NCBI GenBank assembly: GCA_011089965.1
Contig: JAANAU010000026.1
Location: 1-51,355 of the forward strand
Length of the DNA stretch: 51,355 nt
Direction: 5' to 3'
Source of the DNA: Magnetococcales bacterium
GTDB lineage: Bacteria; Pseudomonadota; Magnetococcia; Magnetococcales; Magnetaquicoccaceae
Both the position numbers and the translations under genes were made by a program. Positions 5,875 through 40,700 of the stretch are shown here, one piece after another; the first letter of the stretch is position 1, and each line of letters opens with the position of its first letter. The notes beneath the pieces were generated by a model, which saw nothing but the letters and a program-made list of their open reading frames with translations, was not told where the DNA came from and did no database searches.

Positions 5875-7188
5875 TTGTTGGAAGCTTTGCGTATTGGCAT
5901 GTTGGGATTTGGCACCGTGGGACGCGGTGTGGCGGATCTGTTGTTGAACCATCCAGACCTGCTGGCCAATCGGGCCGGCATTCCCTTGCGTCTGGTCCGT
6001 ATTGCCACCCGCAACCCGGAGCGGGATCGGGGACTCGCCTTGGGTTCTGTTGAGGTGACCGGCAATGTGCATCGTGTGGTCGATGCCACGGATCTGGATG
6101 TGGTGGTGGAGTTGATCGGCGGGATCATTCCCACGCGCGATCTGGTCCATCGGGCACTTGAGAGCGGCAAGCATGTCATTACCGCCAACAAGGCCCTGAT
6201 CGCTGAATATGGCCCGGACCTCTTTGCCCTGGCCCACTCCAAGGGGGTGCAGTTGGGGATCGAGGCCGCTGTGGCAGGTGCGGTTCCCATCATCAAGACC
6301 TTGCGCGAGAGTCTGGCCGGGAACCGGATCGATTCGGTTTATGGCATCCTGAATGGAACATGCAACTATATCCTGACCGAAATGCGTGCCAAGGGGTTGC
6401 CCTTTGCCCGGGTCTTGGCCGATGCCCAGGCCAAAGGATTTGCCGAAGCCGATCCATCGTTTGATATCGATGGCATCGATGCTGCCCACAAACTGGCCAT
6501 CCTGAGCGCCATTGCCTTTGGCACCCCGCTGGACTATGGACGCATCCTTAAAGAGGGGATTCGCCATGTCTCCGAGACCGATATTGCCTGGGCCAACGAA
6601 ATGGGCTATCGGATCAAACTGCTGGCCATGTCCCGACTGCGTGAAGGATTGATGGAAATGACCGTGCGTCCCGTGATGGTGCCGGTCGGTTCCATGGTGG
6701 CTGCGGTGGAAGGGGTGTTCAATGCGGTGTTTGTGCATGGCGATTATGCTGGCACCACCATGTATCATGGTCGTGGCGCTGGCGAACGCCCAACCGCCAG
6801 TGCCGTGGTGGCCGATCTGATGGATCTGGCGCGCGATCTGCGTGCAGGTGCCAAAGAGCGGGTTCCGTCACTCTCTGTTCCAGTACATCATTTACGCACC
6901 CTGCCCATTCAAAGTGCAGCCCAACGTCAAGGATCCTTTTATATCCGCATGGCGGTAGTGGATCGTCCCGGGGTGTTGGCTGAAATCACGGCCATTCTGG
7001 CCCGTCACGCCATCTCCATCGATGCCATCCATCAAAAAGGACGTTCGCCGGTCGAAGCCGTGCCCCTGGTCATGGTGACCCATGAATCCACAGAAGAGCG
7101 GATTACCCAGGCTCTGATCGAAATTGAACAACTGGATTCGGTGCGTGAACCGCCACGTTCGATACGCATCGAAGCCGGTCTGGCATGA
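5875..7188 (+). CDS. hom: Homoserine dehydrogenase
   Basis: 437 residues. It reduces aspartate semialdehyde to homoserine, the branch point for threonine and methionine. The N-terminal NAD(P) Rossmann motif GFGTVGRG is at about residue 11. The catalytic region contains HVITANKALI (Lys about 107), GTCNYILTEM, and FAEADPSFDIDGIDAAHK. A C-terminal ACT domain (about 350-425, FYIRMAVVDRPGVLAEI) suggests allosteric control, usually by threonine. This is the standard monofunctional length, with no aspartokinase fused. It begins at TTG with a strong AGGAGG. It is followed not by thrC or thrB but by the phosphomutase-like gene 10 nt downstream. Confidence 0.95.
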   Translation: MLEALRIGMLGFGTVGRGVADLLLNHPDLLANRAGIPLRLVRIATRNPERDRGLALGSVEVTGNVHRVVDATDLDVVVELIGGIIPTRDLVHRALESGKHVITANKALIAEYGPDLFALAHSKGVQLGIEAAVAGAVPIIKTLRESLAGNRIDSVYGILNGTCNYILTEMRAKGLPFARVLADAQAKGFAEADPSFDIDGIDAAHKLAILSAIAFGTPLDYGRILKEGIRHVSETDIAWANEMGYRIKLLAMSRLREGLMEMTVRPVMVPVGSMVAAVEGVFNAVFVHGDYAGTTMYHGRGAGERPTASAVVADLMDLARDLRAGAKERVPSLSVPVHHLRTLPIQSAAQRQGSFYIRMAVVDRPGVLAEITAILARHAISIDAIHQKGRSPVEAVPLVMVTHESTEERITQALIEIEQLDSVREPPRSIRIEAGLA

Positions 7189-7198
7189 TGCGACTCTG

Positions 7199-8335
7199 GT
7201 GACCCACGCATCTTGTTTGATTCTGTTGGCTGGGCTGACAGCTGCCGACGATCCTCCACTGGCCAAGATCTGTCCACATCTGTCACGTCTGGCAACCGTT
7301 GGTGCCACGGGATCATGGCAGGCTGCTCCCTCTGTGGTCGCGGCCATCCGGAAAATTCTGTTTCCGGATGGCTCTGAGAAGCCCTTTCCATGGGGCTATC
7401 TGACGGCGTTGGGAGCCGGGATCGCACCTGATCCGGAGCAGACCTGGGCCTTGATGGATCTGGCCCACCTGCGGCAGCAGCGTGACCGTTTGCTCTTTTT
7501 GACCCACGATCTGTGCCATGTTGCACCCGAGGAACGGGCGCAACTTCTGGAATCCATGCATCTGCCCTTGTACGAGTCGGGATGGCAAAGACATCCTCTG
7601 GCCGATCCTGCGTATCCCGTATTGATCTCTGCCCGCCGTTCCTGGCATGTTTCTTCGATGCATTGGGAACAGTTGGACCATCGTTCTTTTTTCGATCTCC
7701 AGCCCACCGGACCGGACGCCCTGGAGTTGCTGGCCCTGATCACCCATGGTCAGATGGTCCTGGCGCGTCATCTCCTCAATCGGCAACGGCAACAAACCGG
7801 CAAACCGGCTCTGAATACCCCCTGGATCTGGGGGGTGGGTACAGGAAAAGCGTGGAAAACAGACCGGGAGGTGACCTCCGGATGGGGGGTGGCCACACGT
7901 ACCGATTGGGTGGGAGTGGCCATGGCTGCCGGTTTTACCACCGTGGCCTGGCCTGCCGTGCCAACAGGAGCGGATTTTGCTTCAACGCTTGCCCACTGGA
8001 GCACGGCAGATCCGGGACCAGGTCTGGTGATGGTGCATACCCCGCAAGTTTTGTGGCGGCAGGGGAAAAAGGCGGAACGTCTGGCCTGGTTGCAGGCGTG
8101 GGATCGGGAATTTCTCTCTCCTCTGACCCGCTTGTTGGCCAGATCTCATGGCACATTGAGCGTGATTGGTGATCACGCGGACCCAGGAGATGAAAAGGGT
8201 GTGGTGTGGGTGACGGCCCAGGGGCGCGCCTTGACCGCCCGACGCTGGTTTTGGCAACCAATGCGCCCGGTTGGAGCAGAGACAACAGGGAGCAGCATGG
8301 ATGAGGAGGCGCTGCGGCGGATCTGGTTGGCATGA
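7199..8335 (+). CDS. Degenerate ApgM/RpfE-type phosphoglycerate-mutase-like protein (alkaline phosphatase superfamily)
   Basis: 378 residues from GTG 7199, which follows the hom stop by 10 nt; an earlier in-frame start at 7124 would overlap hom. The fold is suggested by LTALGAGIAPDPEQTWALMDL (20-residue core), by HLLNRQRQQTGKPALNTPW, which matches the archaeal-type ApgM substrate-domain motif, and by VIGDHADPGDEKG. Expected metal-binding positions look lost: the N-terminal DG is LAG (near residue 12), the Gly-Ser nucleophile segment is shortened, and the DExxH motif is absent in VHTPQVLWRQGKK. ApgM relatives occur after threonine genes as proposed homoserine kinases and next to recJ as RpfE in Xanthomonas (both from memory). 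Its stop overlaps the recJ start by 4 bp (ATGA). It is probably catalytically inactive; function unknown. Confidence 0.6.
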   Translation: MTHASCLILLAGLTAADDPPLAKICPHLSRLATVGATGSWQAAPSVVAAIRKILFPDGSEKPFPWGYLTALGAGIAPDPEQTWALMDLAHLRQQRDRLLFLTHDLCHVAPEERAQLLESMHLPLYESGWQRHPLADPAYPVLISARRSWHVSSMHWEQLDHRSFFDLQPTGPDALELLALITHGQMVLARHLLNRQRQQTGKPALNTPWIWGVGTGKAWKTDREVTSGWGVATRTDWVGVAMAAGFTTVAWPAVPTGADFASTLAHWSTADPGPGLVMVHTPQVLWRQGKKAERLAWLQAWDREFLSPLTRLLARSHGTLSVIGDHADPGDEKGVVWVTAQGRALTARRWFWQPMRPVGAETTGSSMDEEALRRIWLA

Positions 8336-10541: not shown

Positions 10542-11272
10542 ATCCGCGCTCCTGTCGCTTCACGCATCAGCCGTTTCATGTCACGCACGGCCAGATCCAT
10601 ACCGTCGAACAGGGCACGGGCAATGATGGCATGACCGATATTGAGTTCCTTGATCCCCTCAATGGCTGCCACCTCCTGAACATTGTGATAATGCAATCCA
10701 TGCCCGGCATGCACGGTCAAACCCAGACCCCGTGCCATGTTCGCTCCAAGACGCAACCGGTTCAACTCATCTTGCCGTTGGATGGGATTCCGGCTCTCCG
10801 CATAGGCACCGGTATGCAATTCGATGACGGGTGCTCCCACCTTGACGGCAGCGCGAATCTGTTCCGGATCCGGGTCAATGAACAAAGAGACTCGAATGCC
10901 AGCACTGCCGAGTTGATCAATGGCGGCTTGCAACAGATCCAGATTGGACAGAACGTCCAGTCCCCCTTCAGTCGTCAGTTCCGTACGTTTCTCGGGAACC
11001 AGACAGCAATCGGCGGGTTTCCATTGGCAGGCCAGGGTGATCATGGCCTCGGTGGCTGCCATCTCCAGATTGATTTTTGTCTGGATCGTCTCTTGCAACA
11101 GCACCACATCCCGTTCCTGTATATGACGCCGGTCTTCACGCAGATGGACGGTGATGCTGTCGGCACCTGCCCGTTCGGCCACCAGTGCAGCGGCCACTGG
11201 ATCCGGATAACGGCCACCGCGTGCCTGTCGCACCGTGGCCACATGATCCACATTCACGCCCAGTTTGATCAT
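10538..11272 (-). CDS. pdxJ: Pyridoxine 5'-phosphate synthase
   Basis: 244 residues. It condenses 1-deoxyxylulose 5-phosphate with 3-amino-2-oxopropyl phosphate, the PdxA product, to give pyridoxine 5'-phosphate. It is a TIM barrel with the hallmark N-terminus [17 protein letters not shown], then [13 protein letters not shown] near 40-52 and a C-terminal [11 protein letters not shown] phosphate/active-site motif. Both ends overlap neighbours by 4 bp: upstream cheD and downstream acpS. Translational coupling with a chemotaxis-type gene is unusual. pdxA lies 18 kb upstream in the same direction. Confidence 0.97.
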
Positions 11273-11808
11273 ACTGTTCCCCCTGACAAGGTTTCCAATC
11301 GGGCCAACTCCTGTGCCGACTTGCGGATGCGTTTGAGCTTGACCTCCCCGGTATCGGTCTGGAACACGATCTGTCTGGCCCAGGGTCCGCCCACATCCGA
11401 AGCCGTCAAATGCAGATGGCGGGTACGTATGAACTCCATGGCCGTATCGATATTGCGTTTGCCCATGTTCAATAGGGGTGTGGCTGCCAGAGCGGCTTCC
11501 GTGCTGAACATCATGCCACCGCCAAACAGTTTCACCTCCAGCTCGTGACGCACCACCCCTTTCTGGTCAAACCAGGCCAGCATGAACTCCAGAGAACATC
11601 GGACATGATCCCCCAGTTCCCGGCAGATCTTCAGTCCGGCTCTGGCCCCAACGCACTCATGGCTGGGTTTGCGGCCATGACAGATCGCACCCTGCCTGAG
11701 ACGGGGATGAAAAAGGGTCACGGATACGCACGAACCGAGAATGGTATGCACCTCAACGGCACTGGTGCTGACATACAACTCACCCGGGTCAAGCCGAATG
11801 ATTTCCAT
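11269..11808 (-). CDS. cheD: Chemoreceptor glutamine deamidase CheD
   Basis: 179 residues from ATG 11808, which has GAGGA at 11817-11821 with 8-nt spacing. An earlier TTG (11823) would overlap the upstream stop. CheD deamidates receptor glutamines and also binds CheC, stimulating its CheY-P phosphatase activity. From this start the catalytic residues fall at Thr22, Cys27 ([12 protein letters not shown]) and His44 (AICHGRKP), close to the numbering of Thermotoga CheD. The segment KLFGGGMMF is a family landmark. A CheC homologue lies directly upstream, fitting the CheC-CheD pairing, but no receptor gene is in the window. Its stop overlaps the pdxJ start by 4 bp. Confidence 0.92.
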
Positions 11809-11816
11809 GATTCCGG

Positions 11817-11821
11817 TCCTC
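11817..11821 (-). promoter_or_regulatory. Ribosome binding site deciding the cheD start
   Basis: GAGGA on the minus strand, 8 nt before ATG 11808. It lies across the stop codon of the upstream CheC-like gene, consistent with translational coupling. Confidence 0.6.
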
Positions 11822-12470
11822 AATTCAGCGCTTGTTCCGCAAGAAAACGGTCAATCCCGGATTTCAGAAGAGGCAATCCCTGGCCATCCATCCAGGTCAA
11901 CAACGAACCCGACACATTCTTTTCCAATAATGTGAAATCAACCCTCAATAACAACAGGTTGCGTTCTTCCGGTCCCGCATCCGCCAAAGTCAGATAGTCG
12001 GGCAGATTTTCGGATGCACCCCGAAAAAAGATCGGTTTCTCTCCGGCAATTTCGGTTGCAAACAGCATGCTCAACGAACTGGCACAGGTATAGAGCAACA
12101 CCTCGCCAGTCAGTTCCATCGATTCTGCGGTCATTTGGGAAGCCATCTCCTCTGGCACCGCATCCCCGCACAGGGCATCGACAAAGTGGCCCAGATCGTC
12201 AGCACGGACCAACAGCACAGCCAATCCCGGGATGGCATGGTCTTCAGAAAAAATCATTTGATAACGCATGCCCACCAGACCGATGGCCTGACCATAGAGT
12301 TCGTGTATAAAATGTCCAACAGACTGTTCCGGCAGCATGGAGAAGACAGGGACCGACAGGACGATTTCCGCATCGACCATTTCGCTCAAGGTCGCAGCGG
12401 TCATGCCAAAGCTGATATTGAAGAACTCTTTGAACGCATCTTCTTCGATATCATTCAACAGAGGCAACAT
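11820..12470 (-). CDS. CheC-family CheY-P phosphatase homologue (copy 1)
   Basis: 216 residues from ATG 12470; a TTG at 12476 is also open, but alignment with the paralogue at 19450 favours the ATG. CheC/CheX/FliY proteins dephosphorylate CheY-P through paired E-x-x-N motifs. The first motif is intact (DAFKEFFN, Glu15 and Asn18). In the second (MELTGEVLL) Glu119 is kept but the Asn position is Gly122, so only one active site may work. Residues about 40-100 and 165-215 look family-specific. It lies 18 nt after the REC-MBL-cNMP gene and just before cheD, its usual partner. Possible target: the phospho-receivers of this cluster. Confidence 0.82.
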   Translation of the reverse strand: MLPLLNDIEEDAFKEFFNISFGMTAATLSEMVDAEIVLSVPVFSMLPEQSVGHFIHELYGQAIGLVGMRYQMIFSEDHAIPGLAVLLVRADDLGHFVDALCGDAVPEEMASQMTAESMELTGEVLLYTCASSLSMLFATEIAGEKPIFFRGASENLPDYLTLADAGPEERNLLLLRVDFTLLEKNVSGSLLTWMDGQGLPLLKSGIDRFLAEQALN

Positions 12471-12488
12471 ATCCAATTCGCCTGCCAG

Positions 12489-15149
12489 TCAGGAGGAGTG
12501 GGACAAACGTGCCCGCTTTTGGGCAATCTCCAGCATCTTCCAATGGATGATGGGTGCATCCATCAGCCCGGACCAGTGGATGCGCAGCAATTCACCAGCT
12601 TCGGCCATGCGGAAACGAAACGGGCCAGAGGGCTGTTGCAGGTATTCCCGTTCTCCGAAGAAGTGGCCCGGTTCAATGGTCTCTTGAATCCTGCCGTCCG
12701 GCCACTCCATGGCCACCGCACCTTTGACCACCATCCAGAGGGAGACCGAGGAAGGATGCGGTTCAATCCAATCGTCCTTCTCAACGGAGGTGCGTTCCAG
12801 GGATTGGGCCACCCTGGCCAGGAAATTGAAGGAGGTCTGTTCTCCGAACAGCCAGGTGTGGCGGAGAAAACGGACCTTTTCCAGAATGTTCACCAGTTTG
12901 CCGTACAGTCCGCAGTTCTCCAGAAACATCCGGAACATGCGGATCGGAATGCGCAAGACCGCGCTGTGCGAGATGGCGCGGTAACTCCCCTGGTCCTTTT
13001 CGATCTCTGGAAAGATCAGTTGCAGACCCATGAAAGAGCCAAAACCCAGATGGTACAGAATTCCAAAATCGGCATCCAGATAGACCACGTCACCCGAGAC
13101 GGTCATTTCCACGCAATCGTTCTGTTCCCCTTCCCAGCGAATGAACGATCCGGCATTGTATTGGGTGATCGGGCCATTGATCAGCATGCGGATGTTGTCA
13201 TCCGAGGTTTCCGGGAAGAGTTCCCTGAGGTAATGAAAGCTCCGTTGCCGACGATAATCCTGATCGCCGGGAATCAGGATATCCAGAGCGCCAAAGGTGG
13301 AGACGGAACCGATCTCCATCTCTTCGGTGGTCAGATTGCGGGCCAGATGGGCCAGCATCAGCCGTTTTGAGGGATCGCCGCGAAAATCCTGGGCCATGCC
13401 ATGGATCATGCCGCCTCCGATATCCAGTTTTTTGAGATCGGCAGGCAGACGGTAATTCTCCTTGATGCGTTGAATGCCCTCCAGGTCAACCGCAAACGGA
13501 CCAGGAGAGGCCATGCGATCCAGAACGGCAAACGAGGTCAGATCGGTCCAGTGGCCATAGGAGCGGTAGCCGTCTTCGGCCAGGGCACGGAACAGCAACA
13601 AAGCGGTTTCCACCGGATGGGGCGAATAGATCGGCTTGACTTCCAACCCGCCAACCTGGTTCCAGACATCAAATTCCAGATCGTGAATTTCAAAGAACTG
13701 TTCAAATTTCTCTTCGCCAAAGGACATGAGGGCGGCAAACTTTTTGGCCACCGAAGAGCGGACCATGGGGGTGGCAAAATATTTCAAGCGCCGGTCGGTC
13801 TGAATCAGGGCCGGCAACCCGGCAAAGTGATCGTCATGGGCATGGGTATGGAAGATTCCTTCGACTTCGCTGATATCGATGCCCAGAGCACTCAAGACGT
13901 TGAGAACACCCGGAATGGCGTCGATCAGATAGAGTCGTCCCTGAAACATCAGCATGCTGCTCATGCTGGGGCGTTCCGGATCCCATCCATCCCCTTCACC
14001 GGTATGCAACACCGCGAAATAGTGACGCTGAATCCGGTGGAAACCAAGAGGATAGGGGGATTTGTAAACCGTATCCTTGGGCAGGTTCAGATCCACATCC
14101 GCCGTTTGTTCGCGAAAGGTGAAACGGAACTGATTGAACCCGGTCCTCTGGACAAAAACCCCGTTGCGGATCTCCCTGGGATGATCGGTGACGATCAGGG
14201 TATCGAGGAACTCCGATGGTTCGCGGATCTTGCCAAAGGCAAATTGCAGTTTGATCCGCATCATCATGTCGGTAGTGGCTTCATCGAGTCCGGTTTGCAG
14301 CAACTCCTCGCGTGACAGCCCATAGTTGCCCCGATGGATATAGGCCAGTTGGGAGGTGACCTGATCCTCGGCCCCGATGAGCATGGGTTTGATGCCGGTA
14401 TTGTTGGGATGGTTGGGGATGATCATCCCCTGGCGGTAGAGCATCTGGAGGACCGGAAACTCGGCCATGTTGGAAAATCCCCCATTCTGCACCAACAGAT
14501 CCGAGAGCAGAATGATGTTGGGACCGGTCTCGAAACTGACGCCGTTCTTGATCGCCGGGGCGTTCAGTCCCTTTTGCATCAACAGTTTGACCACCTCTGC
14601 CGGACAACCGCACAGGATATGCAGCCCGGCTTCGGGAATTTGCAGCCAATAGACCCCGGGGCCAATCTGAAGGGTCAAGAGATTGCCCATGGTGGAACGC
14701 AGAATTTCTTGGGCTTTTTCCAGTTCGCGGGTACGTTCCTGGACCTGTTGTTCCAGCAGACGGCTCTGGTCTGCCAAGGCCAGATGGGTGCGCAACCGGA
14801 CCCGGAGGATGGCCGGATTGACCGGTTTGAAGATATAATCCACGGCACCCATGGCAAAACCGGCGGCCTCGTCACCGATCTGATCCAGGGCCGTGACGAA
14901 AATGACCGGAATATGGCGGGTGACGGGATTCTCTTTGAGCCGTCCACACACCTCGAAGCCGTCCATGCCCGGCATCATCACATCCAACAGGATCAGATCG
15001 GGTTGCGGATCTGTGGCAGCGCGTTGCAGGGCCTGTTCTCCGTTTTTGGCCACCACGGTTTTGTAATGATCCCGCAACAAGCCGGTCATCACGTCCAGAT
15101 TCGATTTTTCGTCATCGACAATCAGGATTCTGCCTTGTCTTTCTTGCAT
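12489..15149 (-). CDS. REC - unknown domain - metallo-beta-lactamase fold - two cNMP-binding-like domains
   Basis: 886 residues. Residues 1-125 are a CheY-like receiver (ILIVDDEKSN; phospho-acceptor Asp56 in LILLDVMMPGMDG; Lys108 in FKPV), then a short coiled coil (128-150). Residues 155-350 form a domain I do not recognise (CGCPAEVVKLLMQKG, IIPNHPNNTG). Residues 370-640 are a metallo-beta-lactamase fold: GRLYLIDAIPG, the metal motif HTHAHDDHFAG (His436, His438, Asp440, His441), a likely third His511 in SPHPVET, and Asp629 in LIPGDQD. Residues 650-765 and 770-875 look like two cyclic-nucleotide-binding beta-rolls (SGDVVYLDADFG; VVKGAVAMEW and GHFFGEREYL). Inferred: a phosphorylation-controlled cytoplasmic hydrolase or diiron sensor with nucleotide input. 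Substrate unknown. There is no signal peptide. Confidence 0.8.
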   Translation of the reverse strand: MQERQGRILIVDDEKSNLDVMTGLLRDHYKTVVAKNGEQALQRAATDPQPDLILLDVMMPGMDGFEVCGRLKENPVTRHIPVIFVTALDQIGDEAAGFAMGAVDYIFKPVNPAILRVRLRTHLALADQSRLLEQQVQERTRELEKAQEILRSTMGNLLTLQIGPGVYWLQIPEAGLHILCGCPAEVVKLLMQKGLNAPAIKNGVSFETGPNIILLSDLLVQNGGFSNMAEFPVLQMLYRQGMIIPNHPNNTGIKPMLIGAEDQVTSQLAYIHRGNYGLSREELLQTGLDEATTDMMMRIKLQFAFGKIREPSEFLDTLIVTDHPREIRNGVFVQRTGFNQFRFTFREQTADVDLNLPKDTVYKSPYPLGFHRIQRHYFAVLHTGEGDGWDPERPSMSSMLMFQGRLYLIDAIPGVLNVLSALGIDISEVEGIFHTHAHDDHFAGLPALIQTDRRLKYFATPMVRSSVAKKFAALMSFGEEKFEQFFEIHDLEFDVWNQVGGLEVKPIYSPHPVETALLLFRALAEDGYRSYGHWTDLTSFAVLDRMASPGPFAVDLEGIQRIKENYRLPADLKKLDIGGGMIHGMAQDFRGDPSKRLMLAHLARNLTTEEMEIGSVSTFGALDILIPGDQDYRRQRSFHYLRELFPETSDDNIRMLINGPITQYNAGSFIRWEGEQNDCVEMTVSGDVVYLDADFGILYHLGFGSFMGLQLIFPEIEKDQGSYRAISHSAVLRIPIRMFRMFLENCGLYGKLVNILEKVRFLRHTWLFGEQTSFNFLARVAQSLERTSVEKDDWIEPHPSSVSLWMVVKGAVAMEWPDGRIQETIEPGHFFGEREYLQQPSGPFRFRMAEAGELLRIHWSGLMDAPIIHWKMLEIAQKRARLSHSS

Positions 15150-15178: not shown

Positions 15179-16708
15179 TCAAACGTTTTGGCCTTGATAT
15201 TCTTTCCAAATCTCCAACACCTTGCGACGAATTTCAGGAAACGGCGTATCCTTGCGCACGGTGTATCTGGCACCCATGGCCAGACAGATGCTCCACTTTT
15301 CCCGATCCATCGATGAGGTCAGCATGATCACGCACGCTTTGGGATCCAAAGTCAGGATGGCTTGCAGCGTATCGATGCCATTCATGATCGGCATTTCGAT
15401 GTCACAGATGACCACATCCGGGCGTGCGGCTTCATAACGTTCCAGCCCATCGCGGCCATTTGCCGCCTCACCAACCCACTCGAACCCTTCTTCTGCAAAG
15501 GCTTTGCCATACATCAGACGCAGGGCGTGATCGTCGTCGATCAACAGCAGCCGCAAAGGCCGACCTCCAGCCAGACGAGCAGGCATCAAAACTTCAAGAT
15601 CGGTCCCGGACGCTTCGGGATCGCACGGCAGAAAACAGGTGAAGATCGCCCCGCGTTCGGCATGGTTGGCCACAACGATTTCACCATGATGCGCATCCAC
15701 GATGCTTTTGACAATGGACAGTCCCAATCCCGTGCTTTTTTCTTGTGATGTCGGACGGGTACTCAATTTATGGAAAGCTTCAAAGAGTCGATCCCGCTCG
15801 ATATCCGGAATCCCTGGACCTTGATCGATCACTTGCAGGTACAAACGGGCGTTGGCACTCCCGGCCCTGACCGTCACGGTGGAGCCAGCCGGGGTGAACT
15901 TGATGGCATTGCCGATCAAATTGTCGATCACCTGGGAGAGGCGGTCCGGATCCAGCAAGGTTGGTGGGGTGGGGGTCAGTGTGGTGTTGATTTCAACCCT
16001 TTTCTGGCGGGCGGTGAAGTGCAGGATCTCGATCCGTTCGCGTACCAGATCGGCCAGATCGCAGTTGCGCCTTTCCAGGACGAACTGACCGCTCTCAATG
16101 GTGGTGACATCCAGAAGATCGTGGATCAACTGGAGCATTTGACCGGCCACATCATGGATGGTTTGCAGGAAATGGCGTTTTTCCTGCTCGCTCAGATGCA
16201 TGTTGAGCAGAATTTCACTCAGTCCGCTGATGGAGTTGAGCGGGTTGCGCAGGTCATGGGCAGCAATGCCGAGAAAGCGGTTCTTGAGGGCATTCAGCTC
16301 CAGAAGATGTTTGTGTTGCCGTTGCAATGCCAGATGGGTTTGAATGCGCGCCAGGGCCACTGCCGGACTGAAGGGTTTGCGAATGAAATCCACGGCCCCG
16401 ACTGCCAATCCTCGGGTTTCGTCCTCTTCGGACTCGCGGCCTGTAATGAAAATGATGGGGATGGCCGAGGTGGCGGGATCCAGCTTCAGAAGACGGCATA
16501 CCTCGAAACCGTTGATATCCGGCATCACGATATCCAGCAGGATCAGGTCTGGCAAAGGAGACACTTTGGCCCGTTTCAGAGCCTGTTCACCATTTTTGGC
16601 CACCACGGTTTTGCAATCGTTGGCCAGCAGTCCGACCAGGACATCGATGTTGGTGGTTTCGTCGTCCACAATCAGGACTTTGGCTTGTTCTTCACTCATG
16701 CGGGTCAC
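15179..16708 (-). CDS. REC-HisKA-HATPase-REC hybrid histidine kinase
   Basis: 509 residues from GTG 16708, whose codon overlaps the upstream TGA; ATG 16699 is the alternative. It has an N-terminal receiver ([10 protein letters not shown], Asp59 in LILLDIVMP), a HisKA helix with His151 ([13 protein letters not shown]), a HATPase ([27 protein letters not shown]) and a second receiver ([23 protein letters not shown]). It has no membrane segment or PAS domain, so it is a soluble kinase whose input is likely phosphorylation of the N-terminal receiver by another kinase, perhaps the 909-aa kinase just upstream. The C-terminal receiver lies next to the kinase core and could accept or compete for phosphoryl groups. 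Confidence 0.9.
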
Positions 16709-19434
16709 GGTTTCAGTTCCAATTCCAATGCCGATGCGATTGTGTTCAGGGTGCTGCGTGCCAATTCAAATTCGTAGTCATCGATCTGGGCGCGCAACTG
16801 TTCCACCTGGTCTGTCACCTGCGAGCCATTGAGCAAGGTTTGAGCCTGATTGGCCCAATCCTGGGCATCCGAATCCCCTTCGTTGATCAGCGTGGCCAAC
16901 CGGGAAAGAATGGGGCGCAGTTTGTTCTTGTCCAGGGTGACCGGGGCAGGGGTGGAAAAGGCTGTGCATGGAGAAGATGATGAGGCTTGATACTCCGCCA
17001 ACGCGGTCAGCATGCGCTGGGTCTCCTGTCGCCAGGTTGGTATCAACCGTGAGAGTTGCTCCAAAGCACCGTCCACCAACGACATCTCCAAAACTCCGGA
17101 GAGCCGTTGCACCTCGCCGGCCCCCAACGTACCGGCCACCCCTTTGAAGGTATGAATCAAGCGTCTGGCTTCACCATAGGACTGCTGGGCGATCTCTTGC
17201 TCAAATCTGGGAATCACGTCGTGAAAACGGGCCTGGACATCGGTCAGGATTTTGCGGTAGAGCTTGCGATTGTTGTTGAGATTGCGCACCCCTTGCGCAA
17301 TATCGATGCCGTCCAGATGGTCTGGCAGTTCGATGGTCTGAGGCGTTGCAGGGTTGGCAGCGGCAGCAGGCAGAATCGGAGTCAGAACCGGCGCGCGTGG
17401 GGCCACATGACGGGCCATGGTGCTCAACATGGTGGGTGGGTGAATCGGCTTGCTGATGTGGTCGTTCATGCCAGCGGCCAGACATTTTTCCCGATCTCCG
17501 GCCATGGCATTGGCCGTCATGGCAATGATCGGCAGGCTTTTGAAACGTGCGTCCTTGCGCATGACCTGGGAGGCTTCATAGCCATCCATCACCGGCATCT
17601 GCACATCCATCAGCACCAGATCGAAGCTCTCTTTCTGGACTGTGACAATCGCCTCCTGGCCATTGGCTGCAATGGTCACCATGATGCCGACCTCTTCGAG
17701 CAGTTCTCTGGCCACTTGCTGGTTGATTTCATTGTCTTCGACCAGCAACACCTTCATTCCACGCCAATCGAAACTGATGCTCTCTCTGGCCGGAGTGACC
17801 ACCGGTTCCCTGATCGGGGCCGACTCTCCCGATAATTCGGGCACCAGAACCGAAAGGGTGGTTTCGAACAACACCGACATGTTGATCGGTTTGGTCAGGA
17901 AGGCATTGATGCCAACGCCATGTGCAGCCAGGATCACGTCTTCGCGCGAATAGGCGGTCACCATGACGATTTTGGGAATATCGGCGTTCGGAAAGCGTCG
18001 GCTGATCTCCCGGGCAGTGCGGATTCCATCCAACTCGCCCATCTGCCAATCCAGATAGACCAGTTTGAAGGGTTTGCCTCTGGCCAGTCCCCGTTCCATC
18101 TCAAAGATCGCCTCTTCCCCCGAGGCGACACACGTGACCCGGAACGAGAAGGATTCAAACGATTTCTGGAGGATCTCCCGTGACACCGGATTGTCGTCTG
18201 CCACCAGTACCCGCAAACCCACATAATCACGCGAGGGCAAACGGAAGCGACGCCGATCCCGTCCCTTGACGCCGAATGTCGCCGTGAATTGAAACGTGCT
18301 GCCCTGGCCTGGAGTGCTTTCGACCCAGATGCGACCGTTCATCATCTCCACGAGTCGTTTGCAGATGGTCAGCCCCAGGCCGGTCCCGCCAAATTTGCGG
18401 GTGGTCGAGGAGTCGGCCTGCGTGAATGCCGTGAACAGACGTGCCATCTGTTCTCCGGTCAACCCGATGCCACTGTCTTGCACCTGGAAGTGCAGAGCCA
18501 CCCGATGAGCCTCCAGATCCGGGCTGGCCAGACGTACCGAAACCACGATATTCCCTTTTTTGGTGAACTTGACCGCATTGTTGGTGAGGTTGATCAGAAT
18601 CTGACCCAGACGCAATGGATCCCCGATCAGGTTCAGAGGTACGCCGGGGACAACATGAAAATTGACCTCCAGTCCCTGTTCATCCGCCTTCAACGCCACC
18701 AGATTGGCAACGTTGTTCAAGACATCCTCCAGATAGAAGGGGATCGATTCCATGGTCAGCTTGCCGGCCTCGATTTTGGAAAAGTCCAGGATGTCGTTGA
18801 TGATCCCCAACAAGGATTGAGCGGAGATGTGGACCTTGGAGATGTAATCGCGCTGTTTGGTGGTCAATTCGGTTTTCAAGGCGAGGTGGGACATGCCGAT
18901 GATGGCGTTCATCGGTGTGCGGATTTCGTGGCTCATGTTGGCCAGAAAATCACTTTTGGCCTTGTTGGCCTCCTGGGCGCTCTCTTTGGCAGTTTTCAGC
19001 TCCTGGGCCTGGGTGCGCAGCATCATCTCCCGGGAGACCGTATTGGTGATGTCTTGAATCTGAATCAGGCAGTAACGAGTCTCCTGTTCATCCCGGATGG
19101 CCTTGATGAGTACCATCTGGCTCATGCGCGAGTTGCCACGGTCATTTTCCGAGGCTGTGTACAAGGGAAAGGGGGTGGGAGTGAGGCGGTGGGAGAGCAT
19201 GGTCGGCAGACCGGCGTTCAACGCGCTTTCCACGGCACGTGAAATCCGGGTATTGTTCAACTCGGGGAAAATCTCCAGCAGCGGGCGTTCCACCACCTGA
19301 TCCGCGCGCAACCGGGAACCTTTTTCCATCCAGTCGTTCCAGAAGACGATGCGCATCTCCGGATCGAGCAGAATGATGCCCACGGTACTCACGTCCAGCG
19401 CCCGAGTGAGCAGTTTGATGTCCAATGCGCTCAT
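16705..19434 (-). CDS. PAS-HisKA-HATPase-REC-REC-HPt hybrid histidine kinase (BarA-like architecture)
   Basis: 909 residues, cytoplasmic. An N-terminal PAS (about 8-130, [15 protein letters not shown]) leads by a coiled coil to HisKA (His169, [12 protein letters not shown]) and a HATPase ([27 protein letters not shown]). Two receivers follow: the first [10 protein letters not shown] with Asp in [11 protein letters not shown], the second [10 protein letters not shown] with [13 protein letters not shown]. An HPt domain near 735-835 carries [16 protein letters not shown]. The C-terminal 80 residues ([16 protein letters not shown]) match the tail of the 1318-aa kinase in this cluster, a recurrent accessory module after HPt domains. 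It is expected to run a full His-Asp-His-Asp relay and deliver phosphate to neighbouring receivers. Confidence 0.93.
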
Positions 19435-19449
19435 GCCGGAATGCCGCTC

Positions 19450-20112
19450 TTATAGGGTCGCCAGAATGACTTTCAACTCCCGTTTGAGGATCTCCATCGA
19501 GTACTGGGAAAAAAGCAGTACGACAAAGCCACTCAGGGTGTGTTGGGTCTCCTCTTCGTCATGGGTTTTGAAGTCCATCATCAATACAAAGGCCCGTTCG
19601 TTCTCACCGGCCAGATCCGCCATCAAGGATTGGCGCTGCGCTGCCAGATGGGAGGAGATGTCCAACAGGAAATTGCTGCTGCCTTTGAGAAATTCGGCAG
19701 CCTCGAACTCGAACTGGATTGACATCATCTGGGTGAAACTCTCCAGGAAGGCGTTCAGCACCACATTGCCCACATCCTGAAGCGTCTCCTGCTCCAGCTC
19801 CATCAATACCTCCAAGGGCATCTGTTCGTTGAGCAGGGTGCGCACCAGCTCCAGACTTTCGGCTCCCGGAAAGATCAACAGGGCGGTTCCGGTCAACTCG
19901 CCGGTAAAATTCTGGCGAATGGCAACCAGTTTATCCTCGTCGTTGGCCACCAGCATTTTTGTGGCATCTTCGTACGGAACAACTTTAAGTTGAGGTAACG
20001 ACAATAAAACTTCGTTGTTGACCATTTGACTCAACGAGGCGGCAGCCATGCCGAGTCCCATATTGAAGAACTCTTTCAGGGCATCCTCTTCCATCTCGCT
20101 CAGACTGAACAT
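19450..20112 (-). CDS. CheC-family CheY-P phosphatase homologue (copy 2)
   Basis: 220 residues from ATG 20112 with GAGGAG about 8 nt upstream. The first motif is KEFFNMGLGMAAASLSQM (Glu14, Asn17). The second is LQDVGNVVLNAFLESF (Asp113, Asn116), with Asp replacing the usual Glu but Asn kept. It is paralogous to the copy at 11820 (EEDA-KEFFN-start in both) but diverged. It is encoded 90 bp downstream of the stand-alone CheY, its most obvious substrate, and 15 nt upstream of the 909-aa kinase. Two CheC-type proteins with one CheD suggest tuning of dephosphorylation rates for different receivers. Confidence 0.85.
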   Translation of the reverse strand: MFSLSEMEEDALKEFFNMGLGMAAASLSQMVNNEVLLSLPQLKVVPYEDATKMLVANDEDKLVAIRQNFTGELTGTALLIFPGAESLELVRTLLNEQMPLEVLMELEQETLQDVGNVVLNAFLESFTQMMSIQFEFEAAEFLKGSSNFLLDISSHLAAQRQSLMADLAGENERAFVLMMDFKTHDEEETQHTLSGFVVLLFSQYSMEILKRELKVILATL

Positions 20113-20181
20113 GACTTCACTCCTCGGACCGGGTCAAACGTGACAGGTTTGTTTCCAATGTACGGTACTGTTCTCTTCCCA

Positions 20182-20191
20182 CCCCCCCCCC
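20182..20191. repeat. Ten-base C/G homopolymer between cheY-like and cheC-like genes
   Basis: A run of ten C on the plus strand (G10 on the coding strand) lies in the 90-bp gap between the cheY-like stop (20203) and the cheC-like start (20112). An inverted pair, GGACCGG at 20126-20132 and CCGGTCC at 20195-20201, brackets the gap. The run could be a slippage site affecting transcription or an assembly weak spot. Confidence 0.7.
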
Positions 20192-20202
20192 GAACCGGTC
20201 CG

Positions 20203-20562
20203 TCAAGTAAACTTTTTTAATACTTCGGCAATCTTGTTTTCAGCGATGGGTTTCTTGATGAAGCCGATGCCCATGCTTTCTGCCCGTTGATGCATGCGAT
20301 CCTGGATGTTGGCAGTGACCAGATAAACGGCGACCCCCGGACATTTGACCATCAATTTCTCAGCAAGTTCAATACCGTTCATGCCGGGCATGTTGAAATC
20401 GAGCAGCGCCAGTTGCAGGGGCGATTCGGCGAGGGCCAAAGCCTCGGTGCCGTCTTTGGCTTCGATGAGTTGCCAATCTGTAAAGCTGGTGGCAAAGATC
20501 TTGCGGACCATCATGCGTGCCAGACTGCTGTCATCGACGATCAATACTGTTTTATTATCCAT
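20203..20562 (-). CDS. Stand-alone CheY-like response regulator
   Basis: 119 residues, a single receiver domain with no output domain. Acidic pocket Asp10/Asp11 (LIVDDSS), phospho-acceptor Asp55 (LALLDFNMPGMNG), a Thr switch in YLVTANIQ, and a conserved Lys in FIKKPI. ATG 20562 is chosen; a GTG at 20565 is also open and better spaced (7 nt) from GGAG. It sits between CheA and a CheC homologue, so it is probably phosphorylated by CheA and dephosphorylated by CheC. Whether it binds the flagellar switch or another target cannot be told. It lacks the FliM-type context, since no flagellar gene is present. Confidence 0.9.
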   Translation of the reverse strand: MDNKTVLIVDDSSLARMMVRKIFATSFTDWQLIEAKDGTEALALAESPLQLALLDFNMPGMNGIELAEKLMVKCPGVAVYLVTANIQDRMHQRAESMGIGFIKKPIAENKIAEVLKKFT

Positions 20563-20596
20563 CACAAGCGTACTCCAGATTCAAATGAATGACCTA

Positions 20597-22303
20597 TCAC
20601 AATTTGATCAGTTCCGGTACGTTCAACAAAAACGATACCGAGCCATCCGGCATGACCGCAGTTCCGGCCAGAAGCGAAATATCCGAAAAGATGCGATTGA
20701 CCGGTTTGATTACCAGACTGGCTGGTTCCTTGATGGCATCCACATCCAGGCCAAAGATGCGCTCTTCGGATTGCAGCACCACGACATGCAAGGAGTGGGT
20801 GGATCGGATCTCTTCCACACTCCGGGTCACGGCAGCGGCATGATCGGGATGGGTGACCAACTGACGCAAAGAGATCAATGGAAAAATCCGTTCACGTACC
20901 CGCACCATGGGAGATTGGAGTTTGCCTTCGACGTTGTCTGCCACTTCAGCCCCATGAAAGGAGACCAGTTCCACAATATTGACCTGCGGGATGGCATAGG
21001 TTTCGCCACAGGCGGTGACCAGTAAAACCGACACAATCGCCATGGTCTGGGGAATGCGCAGACGAAAGCGCGATCCGGCACCGAACTGGCTGGTGATGGT
21101 GACGGATCCCCCCAGTTTGTCAATGGCTGCCTGGACCACATCCATGCCGGTTCCGCGTCCGGAGATCCTGCTGACCTGCTCGGCGGTCGAGAAACCCGGT
21201 GCCATGATCAGTTTCATGACTTCGCTGTCCGGCATCTCCAGGGCCAGATCCAGGTTGATCAAACCGCGTTCAATGGCCTTGTCGCGCACCCGGGAAACAT
21301 CGATCCCGCGTCCGTCGTCGGCAATTTCCAGATAGATCTGTCCCTGTTTCTGTTCTGCACTCAGGCGCACCCGACCCACCGGTGATTTGCCACGCGCCAT
21401 ACGCTCTTCCGGGGGTTCAATGCCGTGATCAATGGCGTTGCGAATCAGATGTCCCAACACCTCTTTGATGGCGATCAGGACATTGCGATCCACCTCGGTC
21501 TCTTCGCCGGTCAGATCGAGAATCACCTTTTTTTTGGTCTCGACCGCCAGATCGCGCACCAGTCGGTGATAGTTGTCCAGGATCCGTCCAATGGGTTGCA
21601 ACCGGTATTGCAGCACCTCCTCCTGCAACGCATGAATCTGCTGTCCCAGCCCTTCCAGGGCTTGATCGGTTTGGGCAGGATTGCGTTGTACCGCATATTT
21701 GAGCTGATTGAAGACGGCTCCCAGTTCGCCAACCTGGCTCATCAAGGCATCCAGACGTTCGATGGATAAACGTATGGAGTCGATGCGCCCCGGGTTGCCT
21801 TCGTGATCCCCACGCGTTGCCGTGGAATCCGGAGTGGTGGGGGAGTCACCGTGGGACAGTTCGGGTAGTGATGGCTCCTCGAGAGCAATGGAAGGGGCGA
21901 TACGGGTTTCTGCTGCCTGCACCTGCTCCAGTTGTTGGATCAAGGTGGAAAAATCGACCTCACCTTCGGATCCGGATTGCTCGATGGTCACCAGGGTGCG
22001 TCGGACCGTATCCACCACCCCCAGCAACTCATTGCCGATCCGGGTATCGATCATCAGTTTGCCGTCGCGCAGGCGATCCAGCAGCGATTCCGCCGTGTGG
22101 GTCAGCTCTTCCAGCCGCTCGAATCCCATCATGCGACAGTTGCCCTTGACCGTATGCATGTCGCGGAAAACTGAATTCAACAGCTCCCGATTGGTCGGTG
22201 TGCTTTCCAGTTGCAACAGTCCTCGTTCGATCCGGTCCAATGCTTCCCGGTTCTCGGAAAAGAACTCCTGCATCAGAGCGAGCTGGGTGGCTTCGTCAAA
22301 CAT
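20597..22303 (-). CDS. CheA-type chemosensory histidine kinase lacking P2
   Basis: 568 residues. HPt P1 with His50 in DMHTVKGNCRMMGFE; a low-complexity linker (about 135-170) replaces the usual CheY-binding P2 domain; P3 dimerisation (about 175-235); P4 ATPase with N-box GHLIRNAIDHG, G1 DDGRGID and G2 GRGTGMDVV; and a C-terminal CheW-like P5 (about 430-565, CGETYAIPQVNIVELV). CheA normally couples receptor arrays to CheY. Here no receptor, CheW, CheR or CheB is encoded nearby. It starts at ATG 22303 after a 110-bp gap with a candidate promoter, so it may head its own transcript. The HPt reads HTVKG, a normal variant. Confidence 0.93.
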   Translation of the reverse strand: MFDEATQLALMQEFFSENREALDRIERGLLQLESTPTNRELLNSVFRDMHTVKGNCRMMGFERLEELTHTAESLLDRLRDGKLMIDTRIGNELLGVVDTVRRTLVTIEQSGSEGEVDFSTLIQQLEQVQAAETRIAPSIALEEPSLPELSHGDSPTTPDSTATRGDHEGNPGRIDSIRLSIERLDALMSQVGELGAVFNQLKYAVQRNPAQTDQALEGLGQQIHALQEEVLQYRLQPIGRILDNYHRLVRDLAVETKKKVILDLTGEETEVDRNVLIAIKEVLGHLIRNAIDHGIEPPEERMARGKSPVGRVRLSAEQKQGQIYLEIADDGRGIDVSRVRDKAIERGLINLDLALEMPDSEVMKLIMAPGFSTAEQVSRISGRGTGMDVVQAAIDKLGGSVTITSQFGAGSRFRLRIPQTMAIVSVLLVTACGETYAIPQVNIVELVSFHGAEVADNVEGKLQSPMVRVRERIFPLISLRQLVTHPDHAAAVTRSVEEIRSTHSLHVVVLQSEERIFGLDVDAIKEPASLVIKPVNRIFSDISLLAGTAVMPDGSVSFLLNVPELIKL

Positions 22304-22413: not shown

Positions 22414-23454
22414 TCAGCGTGTCAGGTCATCGGAAAATTGTTTCTGGATCATCAATACCTCCGGCAACAACCCCTTGAAGAGGGGCACCAGATGGGGATC
22501 AAAATGGCGGCCTGCGTTTTCTTCGATGAAACGCAAGGACTCCTCCAGTGGCCAGGCCTTCTTGTAGGGACGATTGCAGTTCAAGGCGTCAAAGACATCG
22601 GCAATGGCGACGATCCGGCCAACCAGCGGAATCTCCTCGCCTTTGAGTCCATTGGGATAACCGCTCCCATCCCATTTCTCGTGATGGGTCAGGGCAATGA
22701 TCCGGGCGTTCTTCAACAGATCATCCGCATGTTCCCCAAGAATCGCAGCTCCCATTTCCGGATGACGCCGCATGATCTTCCAATCCTCCTGATCCAGCCA
22801 GCCCGGCTTCAACAACACGTGATCCGGTATGCCGATCTTGCCAATGTCATGCATCTGGGCAGCACTGAAGATCACTTCGACCATGGCATCTCCCAGACCC
22901 GCAGCCCGGGCCAGCAGCCGGGAGTAGTGACTCATGCGGCGGATATGCATCCCGGTTTCGTAATCCTTGAACTCCGCCATCAGACCCAGACGGTGAATGA
23001 TCTCCTGTCGGGTCCGTTCCAGCTCGGCCGTGCGGCGATTCACCAGACGTTCCAACTCCCGGGTCTGATCCCGCAATGCCAGATGGGTGCGGATGCGTGC
23101 CAACATGATGGCCGGACTGACCGGCTTGATCAGATAATCGACGGCCCCCAGCTCCAGCCCATGTTGTTCATCTTCGATATCATCCATCACCGTGACAAAC
23201 ATCACCGGAATGGGACGGGTATCGGGATTCTCTTTGAGTCGACGGCACACCTCGTAACCATTGATGCCAGGCATCATGATGTCCAACAGAATCAGATCCG
23301 GGGGAGTTCCGGAAAAGGCAATCTTCAAGGCCGTCTCGCCTTGAGTGGCGATGCGAGTCCGGTAGTGGGGATTCAGCACCTCGGTCAACAGGGTGATGTT
23401 GTCCGGGATGTCATCCACGACCAGAATGGTTTGCAAGGGCAAATTCATCGGCAT
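22414..23454 (-). CDS. REC-HD-GYP response regulator (RpfG-like c-di-GMP phosphodiesterase)
   Basis: 346 residues. Receiver 1-125 (ILVVDDIPDN, Asp58 in LILLDIMMPGINGYEV), a coiled-coil linker 130-155, then an HD-GYP domain with ETGMHIRRM, MHDIGKIGIPD and HHEKWDGSGYPNGL, all conserved metal and substrate residues. Family function is hydrolysis of cyclic di-GMP when the receiver is phosphorylated. ATG 23454 has GGGAG at 8 nt. It lies 33 nt downstream of the 1318-aa hybrid kinase, its likely phosphodonor. The receiver closely resembles those of the REC-MBL and REC-HK proteins, suggesting local duplication. Confidence 0.94.
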   Translation of the reverse strand: MPMNLPLQTILVVDDIPDNITLLTEVLNPHYRTRIATQGETALKIAFSGTPPDLILLDIMMPGINGYEVCRRLKENPDTRPIPVMFVTVMDDIEDEQHGLELGAVDYLIKPVSPAIMLARIRTHLALRDQTRELERLVNRRTAELERTRQEIIHRLGLMAEFKDYETGMHIRRMSHYSRLLARAAGLGDAMVEVIFSAAQMHDIGKIGIPDHVLLKPGWLDQEDWKIMRRHPEMGAAILGEHADDLLKNARIIALTHHEKWDGSGYPNGLKGEEIPLVGRIVAIADVFDALNCNRPYKKAWPLEESLRFIEENAGRHFDPHLVPLFKGLLPEVLMIQKQFSDDLTR

Positions 23455-37738: not shown

Positions 37739-37777
37739 AATATCGGGTATCACGCAATTCTCTACTGGTTGATTTGC

Positions 37778-37783
37778 AGGAGG
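37778..37783 (+). promoter_or_regulatory. Ribosome binding site deciding the RTX gene start
   Basis: AGGAGG ends 5 nt before ATG 37789. This supports MATFNGTEGSD as the N-terminus instead of the upstream TTG at 37774. Confidence 0.75.
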
Positions 37784-37788
37784 TCCAG

Positions 37789-40700
37789 ATGGCGACATTT
37801 AATGGCACGGAAGGGAGTGACACACTGACCGGTGGTGTGGATAACGACACCTTCACAGGTGGGGAAGGGACCGACAACCTGTTTGGCGGGGAGGGGGATG
37901 ATACCTTTGCGTATTATTATAATACGGAGATCAACGGACTCTCCGAAGCACTGCATGGCGGGGCAGGCACGGATACGATCCAGCTCTGGAACTGGGGATA
38001 CTCCTATGATTTCTCCTCTGCGACTTTGAACAGTATCGAGGTTGTGGATCTGCAATACGGACATGTCACCTTGTCTCCCACACAAATCAACGCCATTGGG
38101 ACGTTTCAAGGCTCTTTGCAAACCAGTGACAACTTCATCTACCTCTCCACTTCTGGTGTGGTCGATTTCAGCCAGAAGGTCATGAACAGTGTGGAACGGA
38201 TCTATGGTTCTTCTGGCGATGATACGATCACGGGCACGGCCTATGCGGATGAGTTGCGCGGGGGATCTGGTCGCGATCAGTTGATCGGCGGTGATGAGAG
38301 CGATGTGCTGTTGGGCGAGGATGGCAATGATACGCTGACTGGTGGTGAAGGGAATGACACCCTGGAAGGAGGGGGTGGAACGGACATCATGTATGGCAGT
38401 ACCGGGGATGATCTGTTCGTTTATCATGAATCCAACGAGATCAATGGACTGGCGGAAACCGTCGATGGGGGAGATGGCACCGACACCATCCGTCTGGTGC
38501 AGTGGTCGGTCAACATGAACCTGACCGCAGCCACTCTGGTCGGCATTGAAATCGTGGATCTGACCTATGCCCATGTGGTTCTGTCTCCAACCCAGCTTGC
38601 CATGATCACCACCTTTGAAGGGTCGGCTACTCAGTCGGATAACTACATCTATCTGGGATCTGCCGGTACGGTCGATTTTTCCACCAAAACCCTGAACAGC
38701 ATTGAAAAAATCTATGGATCGTCCGGAAACGATACGATCACGGGTACGGCCAATGCGGATGTGATTCATGGACAAGCAGGCAGTGACACGATTTCCGGTG
38801 GAGAGGATGCCGACTCGTTGTTTGGTGTGGAGGGTGCAGACACCCTGAATGGCGGGGGTGGCAACGACATTCTGACCGGTGGAACCGGAACCGATACTTT
38901 GCGGGGTGGTGGAGATGATGATCTGTTTGCCTATTCCGATACAGGCGAAATCAATGGTCTGGCCGAAGTGATCGATGGCGGGGATGGATTGGACCAGATC
39001 CAGCTCAGTCAATGGGGAGTGTCGTTCAATCTGGCCTCGGCGGTCATGACCAGCATCGAATCAGTCGATCTGGTCAACTCCCATGTCACCCTGACCGCTG
39101 CCCAGATCGGCATGATCACGACCTTCCAGGGTTCGGCGGGCCAGGCGGATAATTATATTTACCTCAGTGGTGCCGGCACTGTGGATTTTTCCAGCAAAAG
39201 TCTGATCTCCATCGAGCGGATTTATGGCTCATCCGGCAGTGACACGATCACGGGTACGGACAATGCGGATGCGATTGTCGGACAGGCAGGCAGCGATGCC
39301 ATTACCGGGGGCGCGGATAATGATCAGCTCTGGGGCAATGAGGGGAACGATACATTAAACGGTGGCAGTGGCAATGATATCCTGCAAGGTGGGGTGGGGA
39401 CCGATATCTTGCGCGGGGGTCTGGATGACGACATTCTCCAGTATGCCGATACTGTCGAGATCAATGGCCTGGCTGAGGGGATCGATGGCGGGGATGGAAC
39501 GGATACCATTGCTTTTGTCAATCAGTGGGGCACGAACTTCAACTTTGCGGCGGCAACATTCACCAGCATTGAAACCCTTTCGTTGAATTATGCCCATGTC
39601 ACCCTGAATGCCACGCAGTTTGCCATGATCACCACCTTTGAGGGTTCTCCAACTCCAGGTGACAATTATCTCTATCTCAGCAGTGCCGGAACCATCAATC
39701 TCTCCACCAAGACCCTGACCAGCATCGAACGGATTTACGGTTCGACAGGAGACGATACCATCACCGGCACGGCCAATGCGGACGAACTCCATGGTCAGGC
39801 TGGACGGGATATCCTGAATGGAGGGGATGAGGGGGACTCTCTGTTTGGTGACGAAGGGAACGATACCCTGTCTGGCGAAAACGGCAGCGACACGTTGAAT
39901 GGCGGTATCGGGACCGATACGTTGCGGGGTGGTGCCGGAAATGATCAGTTCCATTTTGGTGAGAGCGCCGAAATCAATGGTCTGGCCGAGGTGATCGACG
40001 GCGGTGATGGTGCGGATACGATCCAACTCAGTCAATGGGGCGTGCAATTCAACTTATCCTCTGCCACCTTGACCAGTATCGAAACCCTGGCATTGAACTA
40101 TTCTCATGCCACATTGAGTGCAGCTCAATTTGGTGCTGTGGGTACTTTTCTGGGTTCTGCCACCAGTGACAATTATCTGTATCTGGGGGGATCCGGCAGC
40201 ATTGATCTTTCCACGCGCACCTTGACCAGCATCGAGCGGGTGTATGGGTCGAGCGGAGACGATACGATCACGGGCACGGCCAACGCGGACAATCTGTCCG
40301 GTCAGGCCGGGAATGACATCCTGACCGGTGGGGCGGGCAACGACACCTTGACCGGTGGGGCGGGAACCGACGCCTATCTGTTCCATCCCGGGGCGGGATC
40401 CGATACCATCGACAACAGCACCGAGGCCACGAGCGGGGAGACCAATGCGATCCGGTTCGGCAACACCATTGCCTGGACCAATCTCACGTTTTCGGACAGT
40501 GGCAATGATCTGCTGATCCATTATGGCACCAACGACCAGATCCGTCTGTTGGGCTGGAACAACGCTTGGGATGTCAATGCCCGCAATATCCATCTGGAGA
40601 TCAGCGGTGTCAGCAAGACCATTGAGGAGTTGCGCAATCCCAACGGTCCTGCCGTGACCCTGGAAGGTCCGTCCACGATTCAGGAAGGCAACAGCGGATC

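Follow-up and report, generated by a model that had tools for sequence, protein, structure and literature searches.

The gene described here lies on the minus strand at positions 12489–15149 of the window (the whole stretch of 51,355 nucleotides that we analysed, from a contig of a Magnetococcales bacterium) and encodes a protein of 886 amino acids; these coordinates are exact. It is no chance reading frame, as homologues with 43–86% identity are found in 31 of 31 related genomes, nearly all of them in open frames. The surrounding genes, also on the minus strand, form a chemosensory cluster. Directly upstream, about 30 bases from the gene, is a REC-HisKA-HATPase-REC kinase (15179–16708), followed further upstream by a PAS-HisKA-HATPase-REC-REC-Hpt hybrid kinase (16705–19434) and by CheX-like, CheY-like and CheA genes (19450–22303). 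Downstream, starting 12 bases after the gene, are a CheX-like gene (218 amino acids) and then CheD (11269–12476), the CheX/CheC resemblance having been recognised by eye. The first-pass annotation had placed a receiver-controlled metallo-β-lactamase (MBL) protein with two cyclic-nucleotide-binding-like (CNB-like) rolls in a chemosensory setting, and this description holds. The two CheX/CheC-like proteins of the cluster are both of about 220 amino acids; the one at 11820–12476 has no Pfam match and the one at 19450–20112 a weak match to CheX. Beside the cluster, positions 22414–23454 (minus strand) encode what looks by eye like a REC-HD-GYP-like response regulator, which suggests c-di-GMP control at the locus. 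Elsewhere in the window we noted a 403-residue open reading frame with no Pfam match (7124–8335, plus strand), whose flanking genes resemble, by eye, homoserine dehydrogenase and RecJ genes, and a repeat-rich protein of 1488 residues with RTX-like GGxGxD repeats (37774–42240, plus strand).

Gene order around the gene is conserved in close relatives (L039, L040 and L042–L044), and CheA, CheY, CheX-like and hybrid kinase genes also adjoin it in L048, L049 and L053, three somewhat more distant members. Most relatives stand outside Che clusters. No constant partner gene was found at the other loci, where the neighbours include SecA, PBP, secretin, MscS (three times) and glycosyltransferases, and the neighbours therefore give no hint of a substrate. 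MscS-type mechanosensitive channel genes adjoin the distant family members L103, L105 and L108. No cyclase gene was found beside the gene, either in the window or at other loci, where 20 neighbours were tested. The class III cyclase domain has ten matches in the genome itself and some in all 31 genomes searched.

The order of domains in the protein, as given by the open reading frame and an AlphaFold (AF2) model built on 73 sequences (mean pLDDT 89.3, pTM 0.80), is REC, signalling helix, a degenerate pseudo-MBL domain, a catalytic-type MBL domain and two CNB-like domains. Pfam detects REC, MBL and cNMP_binding, all above their curated cut-offs, and leaves residues 130–400 empty. The pseudo-MBL, the catalytic-type MBL and the two CNB-like domains together make up a self-contained module of about 730 residues, which we call the core. 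A plasmid search with the pseudo-MBL and MBL part gave no match, PADLOC matched the REC part alone, and the sole PHROGs match was a generic metal-dependent hydrolase family.

The receiver domain (residues 5–129; positions 14763–15137, minus strand) scores 89.4 bits with PF00072 against a cut-off of 30.2, as expected of a response regulator, and the phosphoacceptor proposed in the first-pass annotation, Asp56, is an aspartate in 36 of the 37 rows that have that alignment column. In the AF2 model, residues 5–143 superpose on the REC domain of PleD with a Z-score of 23.0 (1.9 Å over 138 residues, 42–43% identity). According to DSSP of the model, residues 112–154 (14688–14816, minus strand) form one continuous helix that ends in the signalling-helix motif LEQQVQERTRELEKAQ. 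A helix of the same type precedes the core in REC fusions and in SBP-TM fusions, and a helix with the RT-x-x-L motif usually stands between input and core; it resembles the helices found ahead of kinases and GGDEF domains. The likeness to PleD thus extends from the REC match to the long helix that leads into the output, but where PleD carries a GGDEF domain the present protein has the tandem MBL/CNB-like module.

The catalytic-type MBL domain (residues 373–630; 13260–14033, minus strand) is recognised by PF12706 (37 bits) and PF00753 (25.5 bits), both above curated cut-offs. The motif HTHAHDDH at residues 434–441, already pointed out from the sequence, contains the metal motif HxHxDH (residues 436–441; 13827–13844, minus strand), which is invariant in 73 of 73 members. 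His511 (13617–13619, minus strand), the third-histidine ligand, named as a likely ligand in the first-pass annotation, is equally invariant and aligns with the histidine at the end of the match to two Apyc1 chains. Asp629, named as a further ligand by the first-pass annotation, is an aspartate in only 8 of 73 members and gives way to two residues present in all 73: Asp536 (13542–13544, minus strand), the proposed bridging ligand, assigned from motif order, and His601 (13347–13349, minus strand), the proposed last ligand, which aligns with the last-ligand histidine region of ELAC1 ('lvltHfs') in a second stretch too weak to be significant on its own. These two were assigned as the remaining ligands because of their invariance, the motif order and the alignments, and not from measured geometry. 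The most likely seven-residue ligand set, judged from sequence conservation, would therefore be H436, H438, D440, H441, H511, D536 and H601. The residues invariant in 73/73 also include D439, H533 and H583, and K573, K574, D576, D588 and D592 are likewise unchanged over the 73 proteins, which come from several phyla. The fold, the HxHxDH motif and the further His/Asp/His residues (with D536 and H601 as presumed ligands) place the domain in the MBL superfamily.

Within the superfamily, the closest fold to residues 377–627 in the AF2 model is Apyc1 (7u2r; Z 23.6, 2.5 Å over 220 residues, 17% identity), followed by YhfI, MBL proteins crystallised with GMP or AMP, PqqB (Z 21.8) and a PhnP-family diphosphatase; ZipD (Z 21.2) is a further match. 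On account of this fold we assign the domain to the MBL hydrolases of the Apyc1/RNase Z branch. By sequence, the MBL profile matches the arylsulfatase 8gyg best (E 2.9e-7), then Apyc1 (4.5e-6) and ELAC1 (2.2e-5), and RNase Z as well. The Apyc1 family profile PF23023 scores 14.1 and 16.6 bits against a curated cut-off of 50. The phosphodiesterase-type hydrolase suggested in the first-pass annotation thus finds its support in the fold, with Apyc1 as best match, while the family cut-off is not reached.

The stretch of about 200 residues that had been left unassigned (155–350) proved to be a second MBL fold. Residues 150–374, predicted in isolation, gave a confident model (pLDDT 89, pTM 0.85) whose best Foldseek match was Apyc1 (E 3.3e-4) and whose VIA matches were RNase Z (Z 12.0; 4.0 Å, 150 residues), Apyc1 (Z 11.8) and ELAC2 (Z 10.6); the best matches were MBL folds throughout. 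The stretch can thus be read as a degenerate, non-catalytic MBL domain spanning approximately residues 155–372 (14034–14687, minus strand), which lacks HxHxDH: the place of the motif loop, located by strand order and not by superposition, reads SDLLVQNG and has no histidine. This N-domain of the core is as conserved as its partner (mean column identity 69% for the pseudo-MBL and 67% for the MBL domain). A PDB sequence search with its profile gave no match up to E 10, and because hhalign does not relate the pseudo-MBL to the MBL domain by sequence (Prob 0.3), the origin of the pair by duplication is argued from fold alone. In the model, then, the chain carries two MBL domains in tandem, the first without the motif and the second with it. 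ELAC2 follows the same plan of pseudo and active tandem MBL domains, and the arrangement seen here agrees with that of ELAC2/long RNase Z (an inactive N-terminal MBL and an active-type C-terminal one in a single chain), a likeness of plan and no proof of membership; the present N-domain differs in having no detected sequence relation, and signalling fusions stand in place of the tRNA-binding parts.

The C-terminal tail carries two consecutive rolls, CNB-like domain 1 (residues ~655–745; 12915–13187, minus strand) and CNB-like domain 2 (residues ~775–865; 12555–12827, minus strand). PF00027 (cNMP_binding) matches in two stretches at 40.3 bits against a cut-off of 27.5, and Foldseek aligns the tail, as a tandem, with the paired CNB domains of PKA-R and PKG (E 5e-14). 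The two β-rolls were thus rightly taken for CNB folds, but their phosphate-binding cassettes (PBC) are degenerate, as judged at PBC positions that were located by aligning the sequences with the PKA-R/CRP motif by hand. In domain 1 Gly708-Leu709 replaces Gly-Glu and the PBC Arg is missing; across the family the Glu is present in 28/73 (not in the window protein) and the Arg in ~3/73. Domain 2 keeps Gly-Glu (832–833) and also lacks the Arg (Glu in 68/73, Arg in ~7/73). Neither domain, therefore, has the canonical pocket of Gly-Glu plus phosphate-binding Arg. In this they differ from the PKA regulatory subunit and PKG, and here the tandem is joined to an MBL domain instead of a kinase. With the PBC Arg missing in both, classical cAMP or cGMP binding is doubtful and, on present sequence grounds, unlikely, and the idea of nucleotide gating through canonical cNMP pockets loses its support. 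The tail, which is poorly conserved, may bind a different ligand or serve a structural purpose.

The core occurs in all 31 related genomes of the order, in one to several copies each, and a scan of genome contigs detected at least 550 core loci; the N-domain is present in 55 of 299 sampled genomes of the phylum. The best 80 of the at least 550 loci come from Magnetococcales, Thermodesulfobacteriota, Nitrospirota, Nitrospinota, SAR324 and alpha-, beta- and gammaproteobacterial bins, many of the genomes behind them being MAGs, some of which may be mis-binned. Among these 80, an N-terminal REC is found in 35, SBP_bac_3 with TM in 15, a C-terminal hemerythrin in 11 (counted by homology, so that weak cases may be among them, the fusion examples being confirmed by Pfam), CHASE2 with TM in 1, and none of these in 18. 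One member, L030, carries REC and hemerythrin together. The genome itself encodes a paralogue (L038; G000:C61:44556-46736, minus strand) in which the core has no REC and ends in a hemerythrin domain (PF01814, 55.8 bits), likely an oxygen-responsive version. In a SAR324 member (L108, 5992–8679) a putative ATP-dependent zinc protease domain (PF05618) is fused C-terminally to the core. The tree of members requires 14 label changes, and in it the REC forms of Desulfatibacillum, Desulfamplus and one proteobacterial bin (L046, L047, L051 and L052) fall inside the Magnetococcales REC group, probably as a result of horizontal transfer. In these fusions the core occupies the place normally taken by a kinase or GGDEF output, and we therefore regard it as the output. 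The component folds are all known; neither their combination nor its role as an output module of general use turned up in the literature searched for MBL domains combined with cyclic-nucleotide binding, hemerythrin or response regulator outputs, most subscription papers lying outside the search.

What such an output does can be argued from its closest fold. Apyc1 is reported to be a class II cNMP phosphodiesterase, a homodimer with HxHxDH in which residues E74 and Y112 act in trans from the opposing protomer (PMC9117128). The MBL domain shares with Apyc1 and YhfI the fold, the HxHxDH di-metal site and the aligned third histidine; Apyc1 is a small single-domain homodimer, whereas the present protein unites pseudo-MBL, MBL, REC and two CNB-like domains in a single chain. 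Our leading reading, to which we give a probability of about 0.42, is that the protein is a phosphorylation-gated nucleotide (probably cNMP) phosphodiesterase working in a CheA/CheY/CheD cluster. CheA or the hybrid kinases of the cluster would phosphorylate Asp56, and REC dimerisation could then act through helix 112–154 and re-orient the pseudo-MBL against the MBL domain. Together these two domains may mimic an Apyc1-type homodimer, in which part of the active site comes from the second protomer; the strong conservation of the pseudo-MBL could be explained in this way, as the fused domain would replace that protomer and help to form the active site. The phosphodiester hydrolysed at the di-metal site would most likely be a cyclic nucleotide that serves as second messenger, and the genome, with its ten matches to the class III cyclase domain, offers a possible messenger pool on which to act. 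The CNB-like tail might serve in regulation or product sensing, with an altered ligand, or be a mere dimer scaffold. Against this reading are the PF23023 scores far below cut-off, the arylsulfatase 8gyg as best match by sequence, CNB pockets without the canonical Arg and the lack of an adjoining cyclase gene.

The same sequence matches could indicate a signal-gated hydrolase whose substrate is not a nucleotide messenger but a sulfate ester, a lactone or RNA, as for arylsulfatase, PqqB or RNase Z. The first rank of arylsulfatase (E 2.9e-7), the RNase Z and ELAC1 matches, the closeness in fold of PqqB and ZipD and the presence of ELAC2, with its own tandem plan, among the N-domain matches all agree with such a substrate, while the constant fusion to signalling inputs and CNB-like domains favours a messenger; we consider this alternative rather unlikely. 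A purely structural metal site, with output by protein contact in a non-enzymatic scaffold (for example on a CheA array, like a CheC/CheX adaptor), would suit the conserved place in the Che cluster within the genus, a first MBL domain already devoid of the motif and the poorly conserved tail. It is hard to reconcile with a full metal ligand set and seven further residues (H533, H583, K573, K574, D576, D588 and D592) kept invariant over 73 proteins of several phyla, or with the position of most relatives outside Che clusters, and we hold it to be improbable.

There is a still slimmer chance that the MBL domain is a diiron oxygen or NO sensor of the FDP/ODP type signalling to CheD, CheX or CheY, the ODP/flavodiiron reading raised in the first-pass annotation. 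Its appeal lies in the MBL fold in a chemosensory setting with adjoining CheD and CheX-like genes, in the hemerythrin domains of paralogues and in the hosts of the core, many of which are microaerophiles or anaerobes. However, the FDP motif is HxExDH, and the present family has HxHxDH, all 73 members having His438 at the place of the FDP Glu. Membership of the ODP/flavodiiron proteins was rejected: PF19583 finds three other loci of the genome over its cut-off (206, 202 and 32 bits) and matches neither the gene nor its paralogue at E ≤ 1. FDP and ODP are absent among the VIA matches listed, which excludes nothing by itself. The separate hemerythrin domain of the paralogue, moreover, already provides oxygen sensing, and the domain composition suggests that oxygen sensing enters part of the family by that route and not through the MBL domain.

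We tentatively propose, at a little under even odds, that the core represents a class of output domain not described before, which occurs in several phyla, is joined to REC, periplasmic solute-binding, CHASE2 and hemerythrin inputs in the manner of GGDEF, EAL or HisKA, and controls a nucleotide messenger, with a possibly non-canonical ligand for its CNB-like domains. Kinases, cyclases, GGDEF/EAL/HD-GYP and DNA-binding domains predominate among the bacterial signalling outputs catalogued so far. In these organisms the core connects oxygen sensing, through its hemerythrin fusions, with chemotaxis genes and with class III cyclases. A further catalytic output, present in every tested genome of the order and joined to four or more kinds of input, would give magnetotactic and sulfate-reducing bacteria a new signalling node, whose messenger could be put to the test.
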